From NCBI GenBank assembly GCA_017743475.1, contig JAGHYV010000053.1, positions 1 through 32,226 of the forward strand: 32,226 nucleotides of DNA. Direction: 5' to 3'. Every line of letters begins with the position of its first letter. Positions within the stretch are counted from its first letter, which is position 1. The notes beneath the pieces are model-generated. The model searched no databases, was not told the origin of the DNA, and saw only the letters and a list, made by a program, of their open reading frames with translations. This document shows positions 1 through 31,947 of this stretch, piece by piece. A program made the translations under genes and the position numbers. The DNA comes from Roseiflexus sp. (GTDB taxonomy: Bacteria; Chloroflexota; Chloroflexia; Chloroflexales; Roseiflexaceae).

Positions 1-60
1 GTCGCACAGGATACCATCCCAGGCCAAAAAGCGCAAAATCTTATATAACGAGGTACTAGC

Positions 61-175
61 CGTGGGGCTGATGGAAATTGAGAATTTAATCCGGTATGCG
101 CCTCGCGCCGTCGGGCTGAAGCCCTCAGCTATGCGAGGCGAAGCCCGCCTGCGCGGGCTATACCGGATTATGTAT
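61..175. repeat. Dispersed intergenic repeat, left copy
   Basis: This segment matches, in inverted orientation, the repeat at 31994-32115. Shared blocks include the GGGCTGAAGCCC near-palindrome (113-124), the CGTCGGGC and GGTATGCGCC blocks, and a segment reading ATTGAGAA...ATCCGGTATG. At 142-159 the copy also holds a 7-bp hairpin (AGCCCGC / GCGGGCT, 4-nt loop). It sits just downstream of the polysaccharide operon and encodes no convincing protein. It looks like a non-autonomous short interspersed element or a folded intergenic repeat. No transposase or target duplication is visible. The outer boundaries are approximate. Confidence 0.7.
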
Positions 176-186
176 TCAAAAGACCA

Positions 187-1395
187 TTATGCACTGGCAA
201 TCGCACTGGCAAACATCTCCACCGTCACCACGTCTGCTGACACGCCCAGACGCGCCAGATCGCGCTGGATTTCGTCGCGGTAGATCGGATTCATCACAAT
301 AACCACGTCTGGTCGATACTCGCGCAAAAATGTCGGACTGACGATCTGTTGCCCGGTTCCTGCCATGAACATGCCATGCTTGTGCGGATTGATGTCCACG
401 GTATACGTGATCTCACGCTCGATGCCAAGCGTGGTGAGGAACGCGACCCCTTTCGATCCCGATCCCCACAGCACCACCCGTCGCCCGGCGGCGTACTGAT
501 CGTTGAGATACGACCGCCAGCGGTGCAGCACCTGCGGCACTTCACGACGCAACGTTGCAACCCCTGCAGCCGTGCGATCCAGGTCATCCTCCAGACCGGG
601 AAAGATGCGCCCGGCGCCACTGCCCGGTTGCGCCTCGATCATCAGATACTGGTCGCCGTAGTCGCGCCACAGGTCGATCACATCAAATCCGCACCGCCGG
701 AAGAGACGCGCGAGTGAACCAGGGGTAAAGTAGGAACAATGCTCATAGTAAATATCCCAGAACCCGATCTCCTCCAGCACGCGGGTTGTGTCTGGAACCT
801 GAAAGAAAACCGTTGTGTGGGGCTGATCGGCAAGCGTGCGTCGAACCATCCCCACAAACGCTGCTGTCTGATGGATGTGCTCCAGGGTCATCTTGCAGAC
901 GACGAAATCTGCATGCAGATGGGCATATTTTTCGGAATAGAAGTCGGTGATGAACGTCACACGCTCGCTGGGGCGCGCCAGGCTGCGCTGCGCAACATAT
1001 GCCGGGTCGATGCCGATGCCGCGATTTTCGCCCAGGTCGCACAGCAGAGTGATGAACTCCCCTTTGCCACACCCGATTTCAATAATGTCCTTCCCGCGCA
1101 GGTCGTAGCGTTCAATTAGATGCTCTGCCAGCCGGCGCGCAAACGCATTGAACGTCGGCGAATACCCCTGCGTTTCTTCGTAGCGTTCGGAATACTCGTG
1201 GAGCGACGGGTCGAACGCAGTATTGCTGATGAACCCGCATGCCCGGCAAAAGCCGAGGCGAATATCGCCACGCGGATAGGTGATGGCTTCCTTGCGGGTG
1301 GGGAGCAGCAACACGCTGTGTACTGGCACGCGCTCCAGTTCGTAGAAGATCTCCATTCCGACAGCGCTGCAACTTGGACAGGGTATAGCAGCCAT
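187..1395 (-). CDS. SAM-dependent C-methyltransferase-like protein with N-terminal zinc ribbon
   Basis: This 402-residue protein is the last gene of the operon. An N-terminal zinc ribbon is intact, with CxxC pairs at Cys6/Cys9 and Cys50/Cys53. A class I methyltransferase core follows, with the SAM-binding motif EIGCGKGEF at about residues 106-114. A C-terminal Rossmann-like region contains GSGSKG and resembles the C-terminal domain of sugar C-methyltransferases of the TylC3/NovU type. Those enzymes methylate a carbon of NDP-keto sugars, so this one probably adds a branch to an activated deoxy sugar in the cytoplasm. The start at 1395 was chosen because AAGAGGAA lies just upstream of the ATG. 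A longer in-frame reading to 1575 would run deep into the upstream gene and shows no family-like sequence. The exact sugar substrate cannot be read from sequence. Confidence 0.85.
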   Translation of the reverse strand: MAAIPCPSCSAVGMEIFYELERVPVHSVLLLPTRKEAITYPRGDIRLGFCRACGFISNTAFDPSLHEYSERYEETQGYSPTFNAFARRLAEHLIERYDLRGKDIIEIGCGKGEFITLLCDLGENRGIGIDPAYVAQRSLARPSERVTFITDFYSEKYAHLHADFVVCKMTLEHIHQTAAFVGMVRRTLADQPHTTVFFQVPDTTRVLEEIGFWDIYYEHCSYFTPGSLARLFRRCGFDVIDLWRDYGDQYLMIEAQPGSGAGRIFPGLEDDLDRTAAGVATLRREVPQVLHRWRSYLNDQYAAGRRVVLWGSGSKGVAFLTTLGIEREITYTVDINPHKHGMFMAGTGQQIVSPTFLREYRPDVVIVMNPIYRDEIQRDLARLGVSADVVTVEMFASAIASA

Positions 1396-1423
1396 AGCGT
1401 TCCTCTTGCATACAACTGGCGTA

Positions 1424-2656
1424 CTACACAATAATCGGACTGGGGATGGGAATGATGAACCTGCCGCCGCGCTGCCGATACTCCGCCTGCTGACGCAGAA
1501 TCTCGTCGGCGAAGTTCCACGCCAGCAGCAGGACATAATCCGGTTGCTGCTCCAGCAGCGCTGTGGGAGGGACAATCGGCAGATGGCTGCCGCTCATGAA
1601 CTTGCCCTGCTTGTATGGATTCAGATCGGCGACAAAATCGATCAGTCGGGTGTCGATCTGGCAGTATGCCAGCAATGTGGTGGCTTTGGCGGCAGCGCCA
1701 TATGCAGCGATCCGTTTGCCCTGCCGCTTCAATTCGTGCAACAGCGCCATCAATTCGTCGCGAATAATGTGCACCCGGTCGGCAAACGAACGATAGAAAT
1801 CAACCCGATCCACGCCGCGTTCGCGCTCCATCGCCAGCAAGTCCCGCACCCGTTCGCCAACATCCTCGCGCCGCGCAACGAACAGGCGTAACGATCCGCC
1901 ATGGATTGGAGTGCGCTCGACATCGTTGAGGTACAGACCATTGGCGCGGAACAGCCGGTCGAGCGCTGTCACTGAGAAGTAACAGAGATGCTGGTGATAA
2001 ATAGTATCGAACTCGCAGTGATCGACCAGATCAACCACATATGGGCATTCGATCACTGCAATACCGTCATCCTTGAGCATAATGCGGATACCACTCACGA
2101 AACCGTTGAGGTCGGGCACATGCGCCAGGACATTATTTGCCAAGAAGACATCAGCAGCCTTGCCCTCGTTGCGCAATTGCAGCGCCAGTTCTCTGGTAAA
2201 AAACGTATTGAGGGTAGGAATGCCAATCTTCCGCGCAGCCTCTGCCGGGGCGCGTGCCGGGTCGATGCCGAGCACCGGAATGTTGCGTTCGACAAAGTTC
2301 CGCAGCATATAGCCATCATTGCTGGCAGCCTCGACCACCAGGCTTTCCGGTCCCAGCGGACGCGACGCCATGATCGCCTGGGCGCTGCGGGCAAAATGGT
2401 TTAGCAACGATTTCGAGACTGACGAAAAGTAGGGGTATTCGGCATAAAACAGCACTTCGGGATCAACGGTTTCCTGAATCTGGAGCAGCGCCGAATCCGG
2501 GCAAAACACCAGCGTCAGCGGTGCGAATGGCTCCTCACCGCCGAGTTGATCTGCCGTGAGCAACCGATCCGCCAGCGGCGTGACGCCGAACGACAGGATC
2601 GGCAGCAGATTGGGCGAACCGCTGGCACGGCAGCGTTGTTCAACACGGTACAGCAT
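1424..2656 (-). CDS. C-methyltransferase-like protein with altered zinc-binding cysteines
   Basis: This 410-residue protein has the same three-part layout as its downstream neighbour. The N-terminal region resembles the putative zinc-binding domain of sugar C-methyltransferases. The SAM-binding motif is [10 protein letters not shown], and the C-terminal Rossmann-like part has [11 protein letters not shown]. It likely acts on an NDP-keto sugar made by the rfbF and SDR genes just upstream. The two zinc pairs usually written CxxC read CRAS (Cys9/Ser12) and CPDS (Cys52/Ser55), so the metal site is probably lost. The start at 2656 is preferred because GAGGAAGG (2662-2669) precedes it at normal spacing; the ATG at 2671 has no such site. 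It lies 28 bases before the next methyltransferase gene and is clearly in the same transcript. The substrate is unknown. Confidence 0.83.
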
Positions 2657-2684
2657 GGCAACCTTCCTCATCTATCACTCGCTG

Positions 2685-3734
2685 CTACGCCGATCCAACC
2701 GCCAGCGCCTGCTCAGACCAGCGCAACGACGAGTCGAGTCGTCCCGACGCGATCAATTTGCGAATACGGTCGATGCGCTTGTACCGCGGACCCTCAAAAT
2801 CTTCGAGTTTCAACCCGATTGTGCGGTAGGCGTCGTAGAGTTCCTGCGCGCCCTTTCGCGCATCCCAGACAGGCTGAAAACTCGGCAGCACGCGCTGAAT
2901 CTTCGAGCAATTGACGCGGTAATTTCGCTTATCGGATTGTGCGCCCTCGGCGAACTGAATCCGGCATCCGGGCACCGTCTCATACACAATCTGCGCCAGA
3001 TCGCGGATGCGATAATTATCCTCATTGCGCCCGACGTTGAACGCCTCGTTGTGGATCAACTCGCGTGGCGCTTCGAGCACGGCGATAAACGCGCGCGCAA
3101 TGTCGGCGATATGCACAATGGGTCGCCAGGGTGTGCCATCGCTCTTCAGGTAGACCAGACCCGTCGTGTATGCCCAGGCGACAAGGTTATTCAGCACCAG
3201 GTCGAAGCGCAGACGCGGCGATACACCATAGGCAGTAGCATTGCGCAAATATGTTGGGCTAAAGTCGGCATCGGCGAGTTTCGCTAGGTCTTTCTCAACC
3301 AGAACCTTCGAGCGACCGTAGGGGGTCACTGGATTGAACGGCGAGGTTTCGTCCAGCATATCATCACCGGCAGCCCCATAGGCGCTGCACGACGATGAGA
3401 AAATAAAGCGCTTGATGCCTGCCTGCTTTGCCAGCATCGCTAGGCGTACCGACGCCAGATAGTTGATTTCGTAAGTCAACTGCGGATCGAGGTCGCCAAG
3501 CGGATCATTTGACAGACCGGCGAGGTGCATTACAGCATCGACGCCGTGCAGATCGGACGCTTCGACATCACGAATATCTTTCCGAATCTCCGGAACCTCG
3601 ACCGGCGGCTCGCCGAACGTGCAATCCTCGAACAGATCGCTATCCAGACCAATCACCTCATAGCCGCGTTCGAGCAGCATCGGTGTGAGCACCGTTCCGA
3701 TATACCCTTTGTGTCCTGTGACTAACACGCGCAT
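2685..3734 (-). CDS. NAD(P)-dependent epimerase/dehydratase (extended SDR)
   Basis: This 349-residue protein is an extended short-chain dehydrogenase/reductase acting on nucleotide sugars. The dinucleotide-binding motif GHKGYIG is at residues 7-13, followed by an acidic residue at the end of beta-2 (GLDSD). The active site has the SSSCSAYG segment and YGRSK, which is the YxxxK catalytic pair. [13 protein letters not shown] is typical of the nucleotide-sugar-binding half. Family members catalyse 4,6-dehydration, 4-epimerisation or 4-keto reduction. It does not look like classical RfbG (CDP-glucose 4,6-dehydratase), so epimerase or reductase is more likely. AAAGGA lies 8 bases before the start. 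It sits between rfbF and two C-methyltransferases, an arrangement expected for synthesis of a branched deoxy sugar. Confidence 0.88.
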
Positions 3735-29431: not shown

Positions 29432-30022
29432 ATGGCAGTTACGCGCATTCTTATTGCTGAAGACAACGATCTGGTTGCGCTTACGCTCGAAGAGCAACTA
29501 AAAGGGCTTGGCTACGATGTCATCGGCATCGCTCGCACTGGCGCCGAAGCCATTGATCTTGCAGCGCGCCTGGCACCAGATCTGATCATTATGGATATTC
29601 GTATGCCAGAAATGGAAGGGACGGAAGCGGCAGCACGGATCAACCAGCAGCGCCCAACCCCCATCCTGATGCTCACCGCGTATACCGACAGAGAAACCAT
29701 CCGCAAAGCAGAACAGGCTGGAGCACTTGGCTATCTGGTCAAACCGGTCAACGAAGCAGAACTGTCACCGGCAATCAACATCGCACTGGCTCGTTTCCGC
29801 GAATTGCAGGCGTTGCGTGCGCAGGTGCATGAACTGGAAGAGTCGCTCGAAGCGCGCAAATTGATCGAACGTGCTAAAGGCATCCTGATGCAACGTCTGG
29901 GGTTGAGCGAACGCGACGCCTACGAACGACTGCGGCAACGTGCGCGTGACAAACGCGCCAAGATGAAAGATATTGCCCAGGCGATCATCGAAGCCGAAGA
30001 ACTGCTGGGTTCTGGATCGTGA
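29432..30022 (+). CDS. Response regulator with ANTAR RNA-binding output domain
   Basis: This 196-residue protein has an N-terminal receiver domain with the acidic pocket in AEDND, the phospho-acceptor Asp55 (LIIMDIRMPEM), Thr82 and Lys104 (YLVKPV). A coiled coil at about residues 115-135 leads to the ANTAR domain (LIERAKGILMQRLGLSERDAYERLR, then a KMKDIAQAIIEAEELL helix). ANTAR proteins of the AmiR/NasR/PdtaR type bind RNA hairpins and block transcription termination. The ATG at 29432 was chosen since the protein then starts directly at the receiver domain; a GTG 18 bases upstream falls inside the leader hairpin. The stop lies 3 bases before the aroH promoter. Its cognate kinase is not known; the broken kinase nearby is a candidate. 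Confidence 0.92.
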   Translation: MAVTRILIAEDNDLVALTLEEQLKGLGYDVIGIARTGAEAIDLAARLAPDLIIMDIRMPEMEGTEAAARINQQRPTPILMLTAYTDRETIRKAEQAGALGYLVKPVNEAELSPAINIALARFRELQALRAQVHELEESLEARKLIERAKGILMQRLGLSERDAYERLRQRARDKRAKMKDIAQAIIEAEELLGSGS

Positions 30023-30025
30023 GAG

Positions 30026-30054
30026 TTGACACCTTCGCCAGGGTATGGTATAGT
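30026..30054 (+). promoter_or_regulatory. Near-consensus promoter of the aroH attenuator leader
   Basis: A perfect -35 box TTGACA (30026-30031) stands 17 bases before TATAGT (30049-30054), with TGG just before the -10 box (extended -10). Transcription should start near 30061, giving a leader of about 190 bases before aroH. It begins only 3 bases after the ANTAR gene stop codon, so read-through from that gene also enters the leader. Confidence 0.85.
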
Positions 30055-30094
30055 CGCAATATCAACACCTGAGACGGATGAGATAGTACCGATT

Positions 30095-30175
30095 ATGCAA
30101 TCGCGAAGCACGTATTACTTTTGGTTCTGGTACTTTGCCAGCTCACCAAGAGACTGGTTGCTTCGCGTTGGATGA
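30095..30175 (+). CDS. Aromatic-rich leader peptide of the aroH attenuator
   Basis: This 26-codon reading frame starts with ATG at 30095 and stops with TGA at 30173-30175. Codons 7-14 (30113-30136) read Tyr Tyr Phe Trp Phe Trp Tyr Phe without interruption, and a further Trp codon follows at 30155. Nine of 26 residues are aromatic, and all three aromatic amino acids are sampled. The run lies just after RNA segment 1 of the attenuator and the stop just after segment 2, the positions expected for a stalling leader peptide of the TrpL/PheL type. The ribosome site is weak (GGATGAG, 12 or so bases upstream). The peptide itself is probably not functional; its translation is the sensor. Confidence 0.85.
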   Translation: MQSRSTYYFWFWYFASSPRDWLLRVG

Positions 30176-30236
30176 CGTTTAGGATACCGGAACTCAGAAG
30201 GCGTGGAGCAACAGGCTCCACGCCTTCTTGATTTTT
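30102..30236 (+). promoter_or_regulatory. Translation-coupled transcription attenuator controlling aroH
   Basis: Three mutually exclusive helices can be drawn. 1:2 pairs CGCGAAGCA (30102-30110) with TGCTTCGCG (30159-30167), 9 perfect pairs enclosing the aromatic codons. 2:3 pairs 30157-30169 with 30200-30212, 13 consecutive pairs of which four are G-U; this is the antiterminator. 3:4 is the 14-bp terminator stem at 30196-30228 with its T-tract. A ribosome stalled on the aromatic codons covers segment 1, frees segment 2 to pair with 3 and lets aroH be transcribed. A ribosome that reaches the stop codon covers segment 2, so the terminator forms. The pairing is seen in sequence; the mechanism follows the known trp/phe/his attenuators. 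Confidence 0.85.
30196..30236 (+). terminator. Attenuator terminator upstream of aroH
   Basis: A 14-bp stem (left arm 30196-30209, right arm 30215-30228) with a 5-base loop is followed by a T-rich tail ending in five T residues (30232-30236). It ends 12 bases before the aroH ATG. Its left arm is the same stretch that pairs with segment 2 in the antiterminator. Confidence 0.92.
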
Positions 30237-30248
30237 AGGGAGCAACGT

Positions 30249-30647
30249 ATGACGATCGTCTGTCGTGGCATTCGCGGCGCAACTACCTGCGATGAAAACA
30301 CGCGCGAGGCGATCCTTGAAGCGACGCGCGACCTGTTGCAGCGCATCGTTGCCGCAAACGGCGTGCGTCCAGAGGACGTCGCCAGCGCCATCTTCAGCAC
30401 TACGCCCGACCTGACTGCTGAATTCCCGGCTGTTGCTGCGCGTGAACTTGGCTGGCTCGACACTGCGCTGCTCTGTACGCACGAAATGGCAGTTCCCGGC
30501 AGTCTGCCACGTTGCATTCGCGTGCTGATCCACTGGAATACCACACGACGAGCAGAAGAGATCGTTCATGTGTACATTCGTGGCGCACGTACGTTGCGTC
30601 CTGACCGGAGCAGGATCCAGGCGCTGGCAGAACCATCGGGACAATGA
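30249..30647 (+). CDS. aroH: Chorismate mutase, AroH type
   Basis: AroH converts chorismate to prephenate, the committed step to Phe and Tyr, in the cytoplasm; the fold works as a trimer. The 132-residue length fits the Bacillus subtilis type. Aligned by eye to that enzyme, the key residues are present: Arg9 in RGIRGATT (B. subtilis Arg7), Cys76 and Glu79 in CTHEM (Cys75, Glu78), Arg91 in CIRV (Arg90) and Tyr109 in HVYIRG (Tyr108). AGGGAG precedes the ATG by 6 bases; an earlier TTG at 30228 lies inside the terminator and was rejected. Expression is controlled by the attenuator, and a second terminator overlaps the stop codon. Confidence 0.95.
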
Positions 30648-30678
30648 AACAGCGGTGGGGTTTCCTCCGCTGTTTTTT
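30647..30678 (+). terminator. Intrinsic terminator after aroH
   Basis: An 8-bp stem, AACAGCGG (30648-30655) with CCGCTGTT (30667-30674), is followed by a run of T residues to 30678. Two more G-C pairs can form inside the 11-base loop. It begins at the aroH stop codon and separates aroH from the DAHP synthase gene. Confidence 0.88.
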
Positions 30679-30769: not shown

Positions 30770-30912
30770 GCATAAGCCATCGGAAGGAGCATGCCATGAC
30801 CACGCTGGAACTCGATGTCATCGTCCGGCCGCGCCTTCGCCTGGCGCTACCGCTTGAACACCGTTCATCATTCATTGAACAGCTGTTGCCGCTAGCAAAG
30901 GAGAATGCATCC

Positions 30913-31947
30913 ATGATTGTCGTCATGCAGAGCACTGCAACCGAAGAGGAGTTGAACGCAGTTCTAGCACGCATCCAGGAGCATAGTCTCAAGGGAAGTG
31001 TCATCTACGGTGAGGAGCGGAACATCGTTGGTGTGATCGGGTCGGCGATTCCGTCGACGTTGCGCGAAGAACTTGAGCGCCTTCCGGGCGTCCAGGAAGC
31101 AGTGCGCATTACTCGACCGTATAAACTGGCCGCGCGTGAGTTCCACCCCCAGGATACCATCGTCCAGGTCGGCGATGTTGCCGTTGGCGGAGGTTCTTTC
31201 GTGGTGATTGCTGGACCGTGCGCTGTTGAAAGCGAAGCGCAGATTATGGCAACTGCGTTCGCAGTGCGCGAGGCGGGCGCTCACATGCTGCGTGGCGGCG
31301 CCTTCAAACCACGATCTTCCCCCTACACCTTCCGCGGTTTGGGCGAGGAGGGGTTACGACTGCTGGCGCTGGCGCGAGCCGAAACAGGATTGCCCATCGT
31401 GACTGAGGTGATGACGCCGACTGATGTCGAACTGGTAGCGCGCTACGCCGATGTGCTCCAGATTGGGGCGCGCAATATGCAAAACTTTCAGTTGCTGGAA
31501 GAAGCCGGTCGCAGCGGAAAACCGGTGCTGCTCAAACGCGGGATGTCGGCGACGATCGAGGAATGGCTGCTCTCTGCTGAATACATTATGGCGCAGGGCA
31601 ACCCGAACGTCATTCTCTGCGAACGCGGCATTCGCACATTTGAGACAGCGACGCGTAACACGATGGACCTGAACGCTGTGGCACTCGCCAAACGACGCAG
31701 TCACCTGCCAGTGGTCGCCGATCCGTCGCACGGTACGGGCAAGTGGTACCTGGTGCCACCGCTTGCACTGGCATCGCTCGCCGCTGGTGCCGATGGTGTC
31801 ATGATTGAAGTGCATCCCGATCCAGATCGCGCAGCCTCGGACGGCGGACAGTCGCTCACATGTGAAAACTTTGCTGCATTGATGCCGCGGATGACCGCAC
31901 TTGCCGAATTGCTTGGACGGAAGAGTCACTCATTGGTTGCACGTTGA
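30913..31947 (+). CDS. aroF: 3-deoxy-7-phosphoheptulonate (DAHP) synthase, type I-beta
   Basis: This enzyme joins phosphoenolpyruvate and erythrose 4-phosphate, the first step of the shikimate pathway. A ferredoxin-like regulatory domain occupies the first 70 or so residues, as in the Thermotoga maritima enzyme, where it mediates Phe/Tyr inhibition. The barrel follows with [44 protein letters not shown] and RGIRTFET. Metal ligands are the Cys of GPC, His of DPSHGTG, Glu of IEVHP and Asp of SDGGQS. The ATG at 30913 was chosen because its start (MIVVMQS) aligns with the T. maritima start and AAGGAG lies 9 bases upstream. An in-frame ATG at 30796 with AGGAG would add 39 residues. Confidence 0.93.

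Follow-up and report, generated by a model that had tools for sequence, protein, structure and literature searches.

A leader peptide rich in aromatic codons and a probable transcription attenuator upstream of aroH in Roseiflexus and related Chloroflexota

The chorismate mutase gene aroH of a Roseiflexus genome is very likely preceded by a ribosome-mediated transcription attenuator, which we located in a window of 32,226 nucleotides (the whole stretch of DNA that was analysed). Support for this interpretation comes from homologous leaders across the order's four families, from covariation in the antiterminator (2:3) and terminator (3:4) helices, and from a conserved promoter. The elements of the locus are listed below in window coordinates.

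29432-30022, gene for a response regulator with an ANTAR domain (PF03861, RNA-binding antiterminator type), just upstream of the promoter
30026-30054, + strand, promoter TTGACA-17-TATAGT with TG before the -10 element (extended -10), 11/12 matches to the consensus
30095-30175, + strand, leader peptide ORF of 26 codons, MQSRSTYYFWFWYFASSPRDWLLRVG followed by a stop; homologous aromatic-rich leaders stand before aroH across the order
30113-30136, + strand, putative sensing codons, eight consecutive aromatic codons (TAT TAC TTT TGG TTC TGG TAC TTT)
30102-30110, + strand, segment 1 (CGCGAAGCA), the 5' arm of helix 1:2, 9 bp with 30159-30167
30157-30169, + strand, segment 2 (GTTGCTTCGCGTT), the 3' arm of helix 1:2 and the 5' arm of antiterminator 2:3
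30200-30212, + strand, segment 3 (GGCGTGGAGCAAC), which forms the antiterminator's 3' arm and the central part of the terminator 5' arm
30196-30236, + strand, intrinsic terminator 3:4 with its T-tract, 30196-30209 pairing with 30215-30228
30249-30647, + strand, aroH, chorismate mutase, the regulated gene (TIGR01796, E 4.5e-40)
30648-30678, + strand, second terminator-like hairpin AACAGCGG...CCGCTGTT-TTTT in the gap between aroH and aroF, present in all five Roseiflexus genomes
30796-31947, + strand, aroF, DAHP synthase, probable second member of the operon (PRK08673, E 6e-151; TIGR01361)

The first-pass annotation of this DNA had described a 26-codon leader with eight aromatic codons, and its placement proved exact to the base: leader codons 7 to 14 read Y Y F W F W Y F. 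The run is also unique in the genome. A pattern search with the IUPAC codon TDB repeated eight times, over both strands of the 4,972,449 bases, found two sites, and only the one at 30113-30136 is aromatic throughout; the second contains a Cys codon, a TTG and a stop. Within the genus the run is kept aromatic despite synonymous T/C changes and exchanges between Phe and Tyr. The ORF at 30095-30175 thus carries a cluster of codons for end products of the pathway, as leader-peptide attenuators do. On reading the sequence, we saw no clear Shine-Dalgarno motif before the ATG of the Roseiflexus leader.

All three helices claimed earlier were found where they had been placed. Besides the 9-bp helix 1:2, these are 2:3, with 13 pairs including G-U (30157-30169 with 30200-30212), and 3:4, with 14 bp, the loop AACAG and then TTGATTTTT. 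The three are mutually exclusive, so that the terminator, which stands between the leader ORF and aroH, competes with the 2:3 antiterminator. The stop codon TGA (30173-30175) begins 4 nt past segment 2, in agreement with the claim that it follows that segment immediately, and a ribosome terminating there could cover segment 2. Folding of 30095-30236 gave -65.2 kcal/mol (z = -7.4 against dinucleotide shuffles). When the part that a stalled ribosome would cover was removed, the minimum-energy fold of 30140-30212, representing the state that such a ribosome would leave free before segment 4 exists, contained exactly the 13-pair 2:3 helix.

From these elements we infer how the leader would be translated, where ribosomes would stall, in which direction termination would respond and to which amino acids. 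Transcription would start near 30061, and a ribosome would then begin the 26-codon leader. When charged tRNA-Phe or tRNA-Tyr (in Roseiflexus perhaps tRNA-Trp as well) is scarce, it would stall within 30113-30136 and cover or disable segment 1, leaving segment 2 free to pair with segment 3 before segment 4 has been transcribed. No terminator would form, and RNA polymerase would read into aroH and probably, in part, into aroF. With charged tRNAs at hand, the ribosome would reach the stop at 30173 and cover segment 2, so that 3:4 would form and the transcript would end near 30236. Without translation, helix 1:2 would protect the terminator in Roseiflexus.

The promoter lies directly upstream of the leader, between the ANTAR regulator gene and the leader ORF. 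Of 63 order members, 50 carried a TTGA..N..TATANT promoter ahead of the aromatic run, where shuffles predict 0.21, and its -10 element ends about 45-73 nt 5' of the run. This bears on the simplest alternative, in which the hairpin would simply terminate the preceding gene and the small ORF would be a product of chance. The terminator does separate two genes on the same strand, but a conserved promoter parts the leader from the gene before it, and the conservation of the aromatic run, of the 2:3 pairing and of the covariation contradicts a chance ORF. We regard this explanation as extremely improbable.

The neighbouring regulator gene raises another alternative, namely that the response regulator encoded at 29432-30022 acts as an antiterminator through hexaloop hairpins in the leader. 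Its PF03861 domain, its synteny upstream of aroH and one AGAGAC hexaloop hairpin (4 bp) in the leader would agree with this. Nevertheless, the two tandem hexaloop hairpins (A1, G4) that should precede the terminator of an ANTAR target were not found in the window, and a single 4-bp A..G hexaloop hairpin occurs in just 14 of 66 leaders. Moreover, the leader persists where the regulator gene is not adjacent, and the aromatic codons would stay unexplained. We rejected an ANTAR-target attenuator on the missing tandem hairpins and consider regulation of this kind very unlikely. The ANTAR gene stays beside aroH in about 28 members of the order, with no evident reason.

No match to a leader-peptide family (Phe_leader, Trp_leader and others), a T-box or a plausible riboswitch was obtained from Rfam at the gathering threshold, and a search of 29980-30300 up to E 10 returned only three families, all unrelated and scoring far short of their gathering thresholds. 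A T-box riboswitch was set aside because no covariance model matched. Elsewhere in the window, the Rfam match to CRISPR-DR28 at 137-160 is a single stretch, with no repeat array in 1-3000.

Conservation was examined among relatives, whose assignment to Roseiflexaceae, Chloroflexaceae or the Herpetosiphon type is inferred. The aroH gene was present in 82 of 100 relatives, and an aromatic-rich leader preceded it in nearly all usable members and in all four families of the order, although the search was scored by aromatic content and some weak members may be chance finds. Such a leader was absent or unrecognisable before aroH in genus g3 of the order, and none was found before aroH in three other families of the class, one case being doubtful.

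An alignment of 56 leaders (54 distinct sequences) was used to assess covariation. Across the 54 distinct sequences, 89.3% of the cells of helix 2:3 were paired and 5 pairs showed two-sided changes; its score was reached by 0 of 500 shuffles. For 3:4, 92.5% of the cells were paired, with 8 pairs changed on both sides. The number of cells changed on both sides was 25 for 2:3 (shuffle mean, 9.1) and 95 for 3:4 (mean, 30.1). Since slid-register controls for 2:3 likewise yielded some two-sided pairs, the strength of 2:3 rests on its paired percentage and its score. Column pair 10:80, the most informative one, exchanges U-A (25) and C-G (16 distinct sequences). Column 80 is a position in the terminator loop that covaries with segment 2, and the exchange is therefore explained by 2:3 alone. 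The C-G state of this pair requires at least 7 changes on the AroH tree, 3 of them forced by well-supported branches. In genus g8, the 2:3 pairing was mostly no better than that of shuffled sequences.

Support for helix 1:2 was more restricted. The shuffle fraction for this helix was at most 0.01 in the genus and its sister genus and up to 0.185 in other Roseiflexaceae; the helix is supported in Roseiflexaceae and in Herpetosiphon-type members, but in most Chloroflexaceae it was no better than shuffles. The check proposed earlier, for covariation of the helices upstream of aroH, came out positive for 2:3 and 3:4. The description of a complete attenuator with three helices applies to Roseiflexus, but it does not hold as a general feature of the order.

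Segment 2 is conserved even though it is read in three frames, as WLLRV, GCFAL or LVASR depending on the genus, which points to selection on the RNA and not on the C-terminus of the peptide. This observation weighs against nascent-peptide arrest, in which a leader peptide with a conserved DWLLRV end would sense a small molecule and stall the ribosome in the manner of the TnaC or ErmL leaders. The C-terminal peptide is indeed conserved in many leaders of Roseiflexaceae and Chloroflexaceae. However, four leaders (L008, L042, L045 and L048) use other frames for these nucleotides, Phe and Tyr replace each other freely within the aromatic run, and Herpetosiphon-type leaders end in LPTKD. We rejected arrest on the differing frames, and judge it to have very little chance of being correct.

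We then considered which amino acids the attenuator would sense. Phe and Tyr codons were present in all 64 order leaders scored, which bears out the expected conservation of the aromatic codons, and Trp codons in 15 of the 64. Weighted by genus, the aromatic residues of the leaders are 52% Phe, 43% Tyr and 5% Trp; a rough background for the last share is the approximately 20% of Trp among aromatic residues in long ORFs of the window. Chorismate mutase is the entry to the Phe and Tyr branch, not to that of Trp, and the conserved signal fits its end products. No Trp leader was found before trpE in the 28 readable loci of 30 in the order. Judged by codon content, the conserved signal is Phe plus Tyr, and Trp is an addition in Roseiflexus, where a Trp response is possible.

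The first-pass annotation had proposed a sensor of Phe, Tyr and Trp, that is, of total aromatic supply; the Phe and Tyr part stood, and Trp failed as a conserved input. As a variant of the attenuator, with which it can hold together, a total-aromatic sensor would have Trp codons as true inputs, and shortage of any one of Phe, Tyr or Trp would relieve termination. In each of the five Roseiflexus leaders, Trp takes up 2 of the 8 codons; it recurs in leaders of genera g5, g10, g24, g25 and g30 and in 11 of 23 leaders from other classes, and aroF, the next gene, contributes to the synthesis of all three amino acids. On the other hand, 49 of the 64 order leaders lack Trp, the enzyme does not lead to it, and a terminator parts aroH from aroF in Roseiflexus. 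The TGG codons of Roseiflexus also lie within an inner hairpin of the 1:2 arm (UGGUUCUGG with CCAGCUCACCA) and may serve pairing; their fixation could widen the sensor or maintain this hairpin. We hold a total-aromatic sensor to be possible but somewhat doubtful.

Regarding the regulated genes, the earlier identification of a chorismate mutase downstream of the leader was borne out by the TIGR01796 match to AroH. The earlier annotation made no mention of the DAHP synthase gene that comes next. At each of the 73 loci in which aroF was visible, it stands after aroH in the same orientation. The copy at 30796-31947 is the genome's only hit to TIGR01361 above the cut-off, in a genome search that covered this DAHP synthase model. 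The hairpin at 30648-30678, located by a scripted scan in L001, L002 and L004 and by eye in L003 and L005, lies between the two genes and makes control of aroF uncertain in the Roseiflexus genome. Few genera outside Roseiflexus have such a hairpin; in nearly all Chloroflexaceae and in every Herpetosiphon-type member, the scan found none. The direct target is aroH, and aroF is probably, though not certainly, the second gene of the operon.

Distribution beyond the order was examined with a covariance model spanning segment 2 to the T-tract, searched against the Roseiflexus genome itself and 400 genomes of the phylum. Matches above 38 bits were found only before aroH and within the order. Twelve weaker matches elsewhere, read individually, look like plain terminators, and other weaker ones sit immediately before aroH in genomes of other classes (G178, G304 and G379). 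Outside the order, 60 Chloroflexota genomes were sampled; 18 of them had an ORF with at least 6 aromatic residues in 10 before aroH, compared with 2 of 60 in a reverse-strand control, both from family f47. In this sample, no aromatic leader was found before aroH in families f27 (genome sizes reaching 13.7 Mb) and f10 of the same class. A terminator follows most leaders of other classes, and their 2:3 pairing is significant in some and not significant in many; named Anaerolineae records present the same picture.

Five members of a soil group (L154, L157, L158, L168 and L169) have Phe/Tyr leaders, such as MTGRVRFAGFYFYAYLGPARDRLGMG followed by a stop, about 165 bases before aroH, with no terminator found after the leader. 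In most of the five, GCCTCCT can pair with the ribosome-binding site AGGAGGC of aroH, which suggests a translational version of aroH control. The leaders might all belong to an old, phylum-wide family of Phe and Tyr leaders of aroH that kept its sensing part but changed its output, with a terminator as output in Chloroflexia and Anaerolineae, a hairpin at the ribosome-binding site in the soil clade, and Trp added in lineages such as Roseiflexus; we put this forward as a proposal with slightly less than an even chance of being right.

The mechanism itself is textbook. In the pheL-pheA, pheST and trpL leaders of gamma-proteobacteria, helices 1:2, 2:3 and 3:4 are mutually exclusive and the stop codon lets the ribosome cover segment 2. 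The aroH leader of Roseiflexus shares with them the leader peptide, the exclusive helices and the placement of the stop; unlike it, they use one amino acid per leader and precede other genes, and the aroH leader matches none of the Rfam leader families. In each of the ilvL and thrL leaders, several end products of one branched pathway are represented by codons. This mixture is shared by the aroH leader, but theirs concerns branched-chain amino acids or Thr/Ile instead of aromatic ones.

Leaders before the neighbouring function aroF are known in other phyla. The aroR leader of aroF in Corynebacterium glutamicum (Neshat et al. 2014), as summarised in a review (PMC11802643), has Phe-Tyr-Phe codons, and its ribosome-mediated attenuation was tested; according to the same summary, transcription was affected by Phe only and not by Tyr. 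As described there, it resembles the Roseiflexus leader in placing aromatic codons before an aromatic-pathway operon with a DAHP synthase, but it belongs to another phylum and has a short run, whereas the Chloroflexota leaders have 4-9 Phe/Tyr codons before aroH, with aroF next. In Acholeplasma, the uORFC-13-1 motif that precedes aroF is a predicted Phe uORF with a terminator; it differs in being a run of U that encodes at least one Phe, and its description is limited to Acholeplasma and environmental sequences (PMC8632094). Chloroflexota are absent from the text of a broad survey of attenuators (PMC2965389). The suggestion that such an element had not been described for aroH in Chloroflexota was upheld insofar as we found no paper or Rfam family, in a search that mostly did not reach subscription journals, but it needs qualifying by the Phe/Tyr leaders of aroF known elsewhere. 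The aroH leader family, spread across much of Chloroflexota, appears to be without description in the literature searched.

These leaders extend leader-peptide attenuation of aromatic biosynthesis to Chloroflexota and allow many short ORFs before aroH to be named. The 56 sequences are a natural alignment in which antiterminator, terminator and sensing run evolve side by side. The mixed Phe/Tyr runs, with Trp added in some lineages, offer a test of whether such a leader senses scarcity of any one amino acid or only of the scarcest.

A second putative leader attenuator of the classical type was noticed in the same genome, on the reverse strand of contig C13 upstream of ilvB (L304); its presence speaks for the reading of the aroH leader as an attenuator. 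Its leader reads MNRQNASFLLSLILVALIIITGL followed by a stop; GTTTGGGAGG can pair with CCTCCCAAAC, and the terminator is GAGCCCCTCCC...GGGAGGGGCTC-TTGTTT. Similar Leu/Ile/Val leaders stand before ilvB in other Roseiflexus and Chloroflexus-type genomes.
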